Shown piece after piece: positions 17,509-33,979 of a stretch of DNA of 33,979 nucleotides. Origin of the DNA: Pseudomonadota bacterium. Lineage in GTDB: Bacteria > Pseudomonadota > Alphaproteobacteria > SP197. Within the stretch, counting starts at the first letter, position 1; every line of letters starts with the position of its first letter. Position numbers and translations under genes: made by a program. The notes under the pieces were generated by a model. It was not told where the DNA came from, searched no databases, and saw only the letters and a list, made by a program, of their open reading frames with translations. The stretch is taken from positions 1 through 33,979 of the forward strand of contig JAQCLG010000022.1 of the NCBI GenBank assembly GCA_027592745.1, given 5' to 3'.

Positions 17509-17598
17509 GGACGGGTGGCCGAGCGGTTGATGGCGCTGGTCTTGAAAACCAGAGGACGTGCAAGCGTCTCGTGGGTTCGAATCCCACCCCGTCCGCCA
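17509..17598 (+). tRNA. tRNA-Ser (anticodon UGA)
   Basis: A full class II cloverleaf is readable. The acceptor arm GGACGGG (17509-17515) pairs with CCCGTCC (17588-17594), followed by G and an encoded CCA (17596-17598). The anticodon stem CTGGT/ACCAG encloses loop CTTGAAA with anticodon TGA at 17543-17545. A long variable arm follows (around AGGACGTGCAAGCGTCT), as expected for Ser, then the T loop GTTCGAATCCC. It decodes UCA serine codons. It lies 47 nt after the hydrolase gene, with the toxin-antitoxin operon just downstream. Confidence 0.96.
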
Positions 17599-17719: not shown

Positions 17720-17736
17720 GCAACGAGGCAATGACC

Positions 17737-17994
17737 ATGCACGTGTCCGTGACCGAGGCGAAGGGACAACTGACGGAACTGGTCCGGCGTGCCGAGGCAG
17801 GCGATGAGATCATCCTGACCCGGCACGGCCATGCCGCCGTGCGTCTCGTGCCAATCAAGACGGCACAGGACAGGAAGTCCAGACGCGCCCTGCTCGAAGC
17901 CGTGCGAGCGTCCGCCTCGGCAAAGGCCGCGAGCGGGCCGAGCGCGGCGCGCAGCCAGGATTTCCTCTATGGCGACGACGGTCTGCCCGAATGA
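17737..17994 (+). CDS. Type II antitoxin, Phd/YefM family
   Basis: 85 residues: MHVSVTEAKGQLTELVRRAE followed by GDEIILTRHGHAAVRLVPI is the typical Phd/YefM N-terminal DNA-binding fold. The C-terminal half (RASASAKAASGPSAARSQDF) looks disordered and would wrap the toxin. Start 17737 is favoured because GAGG lies 8 nt upstream; ATG 17731 would be too close to it. The stop overlaps the toxin start (ATGA), giving coupled translation. Two GGACCA palindromes sit just upstream, consistent with self-repression. The tRNA-Ser gene is 138 nt upstream. Confidence 0.92.
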   Translation: MHVSVTEAKGQLTELVRRAEAGDEIILTRHGHAAVRLVPIKTAQDRKSRRALLEAVRASASAKAASGPSAARSQDFLYGDDGLPE

Positions 17995-18374
17995 TGGCTG
18001 TCGATACCTCGGCCCTCATGGCGGTCGTGCTGAACGAGCCGGAGGCGGATGCCTGCATCGCAGCGCTGGAGGCCGAGGGCGACCTGCTGATCTCCGCAGC
18101 CACGGTTGCGGAAGCATGCATCGTCGCCGCACGGCGCAATGTCGGCGAAGAGATGGCACGCCTGATCGACGGTCTGGGCTTTGAAATCGTGAACGTGACA
18201 CCGGCTTCGGCGCGGCGCATCGCCCAGGCCTACGAACAATGGGGGAAAGGCGTCCACGCCGCGGCGCTGAACTTCGGAGACTGCTTTGCCTATGACGTGG
18301 CCAGGGAACATTCCTGCCGTCTGCTCTTTGTCGGCGACGACTTTTCGCAAACCGACATCGAGAGCGTACTCTGA
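17991..18374 (+). CDS. vapC: VapC-type PIN-domain toxin ribonuclease
   Basis: 127 residues. PIN-domain acidic residues that bind Mg2+ are all present: VDTSAL (Asp5), VAEACIVA (Glu41), NFGDCFAYDVA (Asp97) and VGDDFSQTDI (Asp116/117). VapC proteins are site-specific RNases that cleave tRNA or rRNA and are held inactive by the cognate antitoxin. The start overlaps the antitoxin stop by ATGA; a second ATG at 17994 is equally possible. The module is paired with a Phd/YefM rather than a classic AbrB- or RHH-type VapB antitoxin, a combination that is common. The module appears intact. Confidence 0.92.
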   Translation: MMAVDTSALMAVVLNEPEADACIAALEAEGDLLISAATVAEACIVAARRNVGEEMARLIDGLGFEIVNVTPASARRIAQAYEQWGKGVHAAALNFGDCFAYDVAREHSCRLLFVGDDFSQTDIESVL

Positions 18375-18550
18375 AGAGTTAAATAAACGTACGACACATG
18401 TCAGTTTCCGGCGCAAACCGGCATGACCGGCGGCCCGTGACCCTGTAGGTTCGGGTGCGCTTGTTCGAATCGCCGCGATGCGGCAGCGCCTATTGCCCGA
18501 CGGGGTACGCCAAACGCGATCCTGCGGGTGCAACACATCCTGGAGAATGC

Positions 18551-18976
18551 ATGAGTAACTACGAGGCCCCCAGTTTTCAACAGCGCCAGCATGGCGCGGC
18601 CGAAGCCAAGAAGGCCATGTTGGGGAAGTATCGCGCTACCGTCGAGGATCCCGAAGTCGCCCGGATCCGCGAGCGCAACGCAGCCGTCAGCCAGGCAAGC
18701 GCCGCCCGCCGTGCCGAACGCCAGGCCGAAAAGGCCAGGCTGGAAGCAGAACGCGCTGCAGCCGCCGAAGCCGAGGCCGAACGCCAGCGCATCCTGGCCG
18801 AGGAGGCCGAGCAGGCGCGCCTGGCCGAAGCGGCCGCCGAGGCCGAGCGCAAGGCTGCCATGCTGGTCGAGGAAGCCGAACGCGAAGCGGCCCTGATGCT
18901 GGAGCAGAAGGAAGCCCGCGACGCCCGCTACAAGGCGCGCAAGGCCGCCAAGAAGCAGCGCCGCAAGGGCATCTGA
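18551..18976 (+). CDS. DUF6481-type charged coiled-coil protein
   Basis: 141 residues. The start MSNYEAPSFQQRQ has GGAGA 4-8 nt upstream. Residues about 40-125 form an almost unbroken Ala/Glu/Arg-rich helix with heptad-like spacing, predicted to be a coiled coil. The C terminus is strongly basic (KARKAAKKQRRKGI). This matches the short DUF6481 family of alphaproteobacteria, of unknown function; the basic tail could contact RNA or ribosomes. It is monocistronic, followed by a hairpin at 18984-19014. The 176-nt leader after vapC shows no recognised riboswitch. Confidence 0.8.
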   Translation: MSNYEAPSFQQRQHGAAEAKKAMLGKYRATVEDPEVARIRERNAAVSQASAARRAERQAEKARLEAERAAAAEAEAERQRILAEEAEQARLAEAAAEAERKAAMLVEEAEREAALMLEQKEARDARYKARKAAKKQRRKGI

Positions 18977-19014: not shown

Positions 19015-19070
19015 AACCTTGCCATTGTGCAGGGCCGCAGCACCGCTACGGCGGCGCCGGTGTTTCGTGC

Positions 19071-19148
19071 TCTAACTTGTTGAGATAGATCGGATTCACG
19101 CCCTCGGATGGTGCTGTTCGTGGTTCCATCCGAGGGCGATCCGCTCTA
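19071..19148 (+). repeat. Palindromic element A of a three-part array
   Basis: A conserved leader TCTAACTTGTTGAGATAGA (19071-19089) runs into the outer arm TAGATCGGATTC. The core is a perfect 13-bp inverted repeat, CGCCCTCGGATGG / CCATCCGAGGGCG (19099-19111 and 19126-19138), with a 14-nt loop. The outer right arm GATCCGCTCTA closes the element at 19148. It shares leader and outer arms with element C but has an unrelated core. Confidence 0.85.
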
Positions 19149-19210
19149 GAGCAAATCATCTTTCTGCGGAATCGCTTCGCGATTGCGCAGAAGGATGTGA
19201 ATTTGCTCTA
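19147..19210 (+). repeat. Palindromic element B of the array
   Basis: Outer arms TAGAGCAAATCA (19147-19158) and TGAATTTGCTCTA (19198-19210) are inverted with one extra base. Between them is a long hairpin, TCTTTCTGCG-G-AATCGC then TTC then GCGATT-G-CGCAGAAGGA, with a single G/G mismatch. It shares the CTCTAGAGC junction with element A. A near-identical copy lies at the window end (33930-33979), differing by one base within the shared part. Confidence 0.9.
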
Positions 19211-19285
19211 TCTTGTTGAGGTAGAGCGGATTCACACGATTAGCCGGAACCGCTCGGCGGTTCCGGCTAATCGTGATCCGCTCTA
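19207..19285 (+). repeat. Palindromic element C of the array
   Basis: The leader CTTGTTGAGGTAGAGCGGAT repeats that of element A with two differences. Outer arms TAGAGCGGATTCAC (19222-19235) and GTGATCCGCTCTA (19273-19285) flank a perfect 18-bp inverted repeat (19236-19253 and 19257-19274; ACGATTAGCCGGAACCGC on the left) with a 3-nt loop. It ends 41 bp before the glycosyltransferase start, so it may affect that gene's expression. Confidence 0.88.
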
Positions 19286-33815: not shown

Positions 33816-33920
33816 ACCCTCCCCTCTCCCCTTGTGGGAGAGGGGAGGGTGAGGGGTCTTACGCGCGGTAGCGCGGACAAGAGATCCCTGGTTCAGCGTC
33901 GACGACTCCACCCCTCACCC
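33816..33920 (+). repeat. Intergenic C/G-rich palindromic repeat with long-range arms
   Basis: A perfect 15-bp inverted repeat (left arm 33816-33830 ACCCTCCCCTCTCCC, loop CTTGT, right arm 33836-33850) lies 38 bp after the DsbA-family stop. Its right side continues as GGGTGAGGGGT (33847-33857), which pairs with ACCCCTCACCC at 33910-33920, 52 bp downstream. This CCCTCTCC...GGAGAGGG motif is a widespread proteobacterial intergenic repeat. The stretch between contains CGCGC-GGTA-GCGCG. Confidence 0.8.
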
Positions 33921-33929
33921 AGCTTCGCC

Positions 33930-33979
33930 TAGAGCAAATCATCCTTCTGCGGAATCGCTTCGCGATTGCGCAGAAGGAT
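33930..33979 (+). repeat. Second copy of palindromic element B, cut by the window end
   Basis: TAGAGCAAATCA followed by the hairpin TCCTTCTGCG-G-AATCGC, TTC, GCGATT-G-CGCAGAAGGA matches 19147-19195 at all but one base. The single change restores a pair that is G-U in the first copy. The outer right arm lies beyond the window, so element boundaries cannot be confirmed here. Confidence 0.88.

Follow-up and report, generated by a model that had tools for sequence, protein, structure and literature searches.

A probable CIR-type repeat inserted in the end of an older half-copy in an alphaproteobacterial genome

The palindromic array at positions 19086–19285 of the window, by which we mean the whole stretch of 33,979 nucleotides analyzed, very probably consists of a complete, non-autonomous, MITE-like copy of a CIR-type repeat (19147–19285) lying in the terminal TA of an older half-copy, A. 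CIR stands for CcrM-associated intergenic repeat (Chen and Shapiro 2003, as described in PMC2229807 and PMC10969869). We also propose, as a tentative reading to which we give somewhat less than even credence, that CIR-type repeats are transposons adapted to stop codons: every insertion into Y-TAG or Y-TAA would rebuild an in-frame stop, giving the repeats a safe gene-end niche through much of Alphaproteobacteria, in which the cores may drift freely while remaining paired. Two-hairpin repeats are abundant in alphaproteobacteria, and their movement was left open in the accessible part of a 2007 review (PMC2229807). Because insertion sites can be read here, it becomes possible to test the target and the end points, and to look for the transposase with a defined search image.

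Composition of the array

Three hairpins (A, B and C), all on the + strand, make up the array. The initial annotation had described three palindromes with arms and cores at this place, and these are present, apart from the length given for the core of C. Hairpin A (19086–19148) has the arms TAGATCGGATTCAC and GATCCGCTCTA and, as annotated, a perfect core of 13 bp (19099–19111 paired with 19126–19138). Hairpin C (19222–19285) has a loop of 3 nt and a perfect core of 19 bp, instead of the 18 bp first reported. Hairpin B occupies 19147–19210, and both B and C carry a TCA bulge of 3 nt on the inner arm. The leader said to be shared by A and C is indeed shared, as a 32-nt direct repeat with 91% identity. 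It is, however, not a separate part, since it consists of the end of the preceding hairpin (GCTCTA) and the linker. Thus, the stretch before A (19069–19085) is a remnant comprising a lost hairpin's end (GCTCTA) and the linker ACTTGTTGAGA, and its position matches that of the hairpin 1 end and linker in whole elements. Of the junctions described earlier, A and B do adjoin, at a common TA (19147–19148), whereas B and C are not joined directly but through the 11-nt linker TCTTGTTGAGG (19211–19221), which is evident from the sequence, from other copies and from the alignment.

Each of the three hairpins, when folded as had been proposed, surpassed all of its 200 dinucleotide shuffles, with z values of −7.7 for A, −8.4 for B and −11.9 for C. 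Perfect inverted repeats of at least 12 bp with loops of 3–20 nt were absent from eight simulated windows, compared with four separate ones in the real window, two of which are A and C. Since the shuffled sequences fold worse and the simulated windows yield no such repeats, a chance origin of the three palindromes is excluded. The array lies between two + strand genes, encoding a DUF6481 protein (ORF 18455–18976) and a glycosyltransferase (read from 19327). No intrinsic terminator or sigma-70 promoter was found at the array, and the array has no Rfam match above the gathering score, the window giving a tRNA only. Further upstream, genes for a Phd/YefM-type antitoxin and a PIN-domain protein stand in tandem at 17722–18374, right after the tRNA (17509–17595).

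The true repeating unit runs from hairpin 1 through the 11-nt linker to hairpin 2, and complete copies in this genome measure 139 bp. Because other copies in the genome carry these three parts together, B (hairpin 1) and C (hairpin 2) are one element and not separate units. The same full unit occurs at other loci, and the window copy matches the covariance model over its positions 1–139 with 151.9 bits. The arms and linker of A belong to a second, rarer subfamily (TAGATC). A is of the hairpin-2 type, and the members of its subfamily that were seen are all half-elements, with the same arms at three other loci (L015, L043 and L049). The array is therefore a whole two-hairpin element plus a half-element of an older subfamily, not three like units. 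Another element of the same family, cut off by the contig end, lies at 33930–33979 (+ strand; model positions 1–50, 37.8 bits). An inverted repeat at 33816–33850, soon after a gene end, has perfect arms of 15 bp and a loop of 5 nt and is not a member of the family.

Pairing and dispersal of the element

To describe the pairing, we used an alignment of the window element with 56 of 68 others. The 12 excluded elements have a longer hairpin 1 (L118, L151, L162, L163 and L209), are divergent (L097 and L130) or are near-duplicates (L140, L148, L167, L176 and L203). Across the 57 aligned elements the outer and inner arms are nearly constant, although the elements were chosen by arm patterns. This choice contributes to the conservation and pairing seen in the arms but has no bearing on the cores or the flanking bases. 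Paired cells make up 95.6% of the alignment, and double changes were counted in 475 cells, compared with 147.6 ± 12.4 after shuffling and 53–87 with slid partners. The two core helices lie outside the selecting pattern, and double changes occur in 11 of 12 pairs of one and 15 of 19 of the other. The covarying helices 1 and 2 lie in hairpin 1, and helices 3 and 4 in hairpin 2. Folding a single element over its full length gives a cloverleaf as the optimum, but this alternative was rejected for lack of covariation. The two outer ends of one element differ at one or two of 11 bases in most elements. Hairpin pairing is maintained by compensatory change, which may reflect either selection on the folded strand or hairpin-templated correction. 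G-T cells outnumber A-C mismatch cells by 61 to 30 when the systematically mismatched pair 102–119 is left out and by 61 to 41 when it is included; the excess leans toward pairing in RNA, the cells not being independent of one another.

The element is widely dispersed. The arm TAGAKCGGATTCA has 41 exact occurrences in this genome and a further 16 that differ at one base, compared with three occurrences of the backwards control, and the outer end YTAGAGCRRATC occurs 96 times (control, one). The genome search that the initial annotation had called for thus recovers many copies, and the MITE-like character it had suggested agrees with the length of 139 bp, the inverted ends and the number of outer ends. 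At least 106 stretches in genome contigs carry the two-inner-arm pattern, and among the matches listed most come from Pelagibius, Kiloniellaceae and other Rhodospirillales. BLAST with the window element gave matches in 11 of 61 genomes, including 9 of the 16 from the same family. Of the 289 alphaproteobacterial genomes sampled, 31 matched the covariance model built from the 57 elements, as did 26 of the 219 genera; both figures are lower bounds because the filters of large searches drop weak matches. No plasmid matches were found for the two elements searched. An element of the family, otherwise alphaproteobacterial, also stands in a contig labelled Anaerolineae (L128, JANQQD010000255.1); this is likely a case of mis-binning, as the contig's isolate name, IP29b, is also borne by a Pelagibius MAG. 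The repeats also explain part of the assembly fragmentation, since in 26 contigs of genome G000 (counted by eye) an outer end lies no more than 120 bases from base 1.

Insertion target and stop codons

In 217 loci we found 66 complete elements, from which the insertion target was read: a pyrimidine (Y) precedes 64 of the 66, and a purine (R) follows 62. TA stands at both ends in all 57 aligned elements. Two orthologous empty sites were found in the same-genus genome G001: one reads CTAG where the filled site reads C-TA-[element]-TA-G, and the other CTAA, with the stop codon TAA, where the filled site reads C-TA-[element]-TA-A. All three loci queried in G001 lack the element. The third is the window locus, where both neighboring genes are kept, the array is absent and the spacer measures 143 bp compared with 355 bp; the two spacers are not alignable, so the exact empty junction cannot be read. 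In addition, a window-family element interrupts a different two-hairpin repeat at L115, in the Rhodospirillales MAG PL25a_bin.107. Five uninterrupted copies of this host repeat, in four loci (L144, L180 twice, L190 and L202), have TTAG at the junction in two cases (L144 and L190) and a sequence one base off YTAR in the other three. The host repeat represents a second two-hairpin family in this MAG, bearing GANTC and with ends TAGTGTG...; its copies lie at L115 4304–4571, L144 98–228, L180 122–252 and 1068–1198, L190 5221–5348 and L202 4431–4560.

From the two orthologous empty sites, the repeat-in-repeat insertion and the flank counts, all of them sequence comparisons, we read the rule that insertion occurs at YTAR, the filled site having TA at both element ends and the empty site a single TA. 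We infer that the TA is duplicated on insertion, although a TA borne by one element end would look the same. The preference shown by the flanking bases is symmetric, which is suggestive of a palindromic target and hence of a DDE-type enzyme. In the window, the presumed insertion target is the shared TA in which A ends and the element begins (19147–19148), and the presumed duplication is the TA at the element's right end (19284–19285), followed by G. As B–C begins in the final TA of A, in line with the target rule, it is most simply read as having inserted into A's right end. The tandem joining of units noted earlier would here be the result of an insertion into the terminus of an existing element.

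Both orthologous empty targets in G001 are the stop codons of the upstream genes, TAG and TAA (frames read by eye). To see how common this is, coding frames were called at 126 element ends with a home-made third-position G+C rule, which left 89 ends without a call; 35 coding frames are ended by the element's TAG, compared with one in each of the other two frames. Of the 66 elements, 32 have at least one end that coincides with the stop codon of a gene. Background CTAG sites in the same loci are also often at stop codons, in 52 of 305 cases (Fisher p ~4e-7; the test assumes independence, and related copies violate this assumption). A set of 26 further loci from the class, with each genome represented once, offered 40 testable ends; 8 are of the stop type, and the other frames gave 0 and 0. 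The excess may reflect either a preference for stops or the loss of insertions elsewhere. The window copy itself adjoins no stop of a gene. Since G stands after TA at both element ends, the stop would be restored in place: insertion into Y-TAG or Y-TAA would leave an in-frame TAG and an intact protein, and copies may persist at gene ends for this reason. The finding suggests a simple route to harmlessness for a mobile element, and a route by which hairpins turn into the 3' ends of genes.

Movement would require a transposase acting in trans that recognizes the constant ends TAGAKCRRATC and duplicates the TA, as IS630- or IS5/IS427-type DDE enzymes do. The search for an autonomous partner covered assembled stretches. 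No segment bounded by these ends 0.5–3 kb apart was present in the 217 loci, and reading by eye through the ends listed for genome G000, and through an incomplete list for G004, revealed no autonomous element. Two candidate partners were rejected. The single IS630-type match has no element-like ends, and the elements with PF13340, which we take to be of the IS5/IS427 type, have a similar CTAG target but other ends (15 loci inspected).

Alternative explanations and known systems

One of the readings offered by the initial annotation was a modular scaffold that accepts different hairpin cores, the swap presumably being made by recombination. The part of this picture concerning constant arms around variable cores is borne out by the 57-element alignment, and a few copies, such as L036 and L010, combine the left core arm of one variant with the right core arm of another, as exchange would predict. 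Such copies, however, differ by one or two bases, and no exchange is needed to produce them. Within this genome the hairpin-2 cores vary by small, mostly compensated changes and the hairpin-1 cores are nearly constant; between genomes the cores differ but co-vary base pair by base pair, both arms changing jointly. L004 and L035 pair an identical hairpin-1 variant with an identical hairpin-2 variant. We therefore regard core swapping as very improbable. Movement of the two inverted hairpins, in single-stranded form, by a RAYT or IS200-type (Y1) transposase is scarcely more attractive, and we consider it quite unlikely. REPINs are built of head-to-head hairpins with an inner-arm bulge and TAG at the outer foot, and the present element shares all of this, including conserved bulges and a conserved TAG at each outer foot. 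The Y1 transposase domain (PF01797), on the other hand, has no match in this genome, although 5 of 14 control genomes gave one, and the symmetry of the flanks, with Y before and R after the element and TA at each of its termini, agrees better with a palindromic target than with a one-sided target. The REPIN/RAYT part of the earlier suggestion is thus not upheld.

A rather better case can be made for elements kept as working RNA or DNA parts (terminator-like, mRNA-protecting or methylation-linked) whose mobility is incidental, although we still judge this unlikely. The strong covariation, the gene-end location of many copies and the excess of G-T over A-C cells noted above, as RNA pairing favors, speak for it. 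So do the GANTC sites at fixed positions. The site close to the tip of hairpin 1 (GAATC, 19169–19173, + strand) recurs at the same position in 50 of the 57 elements, the site in the inner arm of hairpin 2 (GATTC, 19229–19233, + strand) in all 57, and the density is 2.58 per element compared with 0.31 per 139 bp of fetched DNA. The RAMA domain is a feature of CcrM. It was found in one (G043) of the four genomes searched and not in G000, G001 or G004, all rich in elements, and a Caulobacter control was positive; because of these absences a tie between the elements and CcrM is doubtful here. The orientation of the element relative to the adjoining stop is random (the hairpin-1 end in 16, the hairpin-2 end in 13 and both in 3, of 63), which disfavors a strand-specific role downstream of genes. 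The window array has no terminator-like site, and both orthologous sites in G001 are empty. We thus prefer the reading of the array as a mobile CIR-type copy inserted in the end of half-element A.

REPINs and BIMEs are inverted pairs of imperfect hairpins, intergenic and associated with RAYT. The window element is likewise an inverted intergenic pair of hairpins, but its family occurs in a genome with no Y1 match and has the symmetric YTAR target. A parallel to this target is offered by IS711 of Brucella, which is presumably of the IS5/IS427 type. The PF13340-type elements of the present genomes also stand at CTAG. Such insertion sequences encode a transposase, unlike the window element, and the PF13340-type ends (GG...) differ from those of the window family (GAGCRRATC). 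For IS711, the accessible description reports TA duplication at YTAR (PMC2266754).

Small repeats offer further likenesses. By description, Bru-RS of Brucella, a palindromic repeat of 103–105 bp (PMC2267715), and the mosaic RIME of Rhizobium resemble the window element as intergenic repeats of alphaproteobacteria. As far as the accessible part of the 2007 review describes them, RUP of Streptococcus pneumoniae and Correia/NEMIS of Neisseria are small, non-autonomous and TA-ended like the window element but have no structure of two arms and a linker (PMC2229807). For RUP the same source names an IS630 partner with matching ends, whereas no autonomous partner was seen for the window family.

The window element fits the CIR type best, judged by descriptions of CIRs and not by the Caulobacter CIR1–4 sequences. 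In the accessible descriptions, CIRs are intergenic alphaproteobacterial repeats of ~110 bp, with two inverted repeats and a linker, TA termini and GANTC near one tip (PMC2229807, PMC10969869). The window element likewise has two long inverted repeats, a linker, TA termini and GANTC, and is intergenic and alphaproteobacterial. It differs in its length of 139 bp, some relatives measuring 97–118 bp, and in that the RAMA domain was not found in three genomes rich in its family. According to the accessible part of the 2007 review, the target duplication of CIRs was unknown and their mobility needed more information (PMC2229807); no paper reporting such a duplication was found among the open-licence literature searched. 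Here, by contrast with that account, a YTAR target and empty sites are shown for a repeat of the CIR type.
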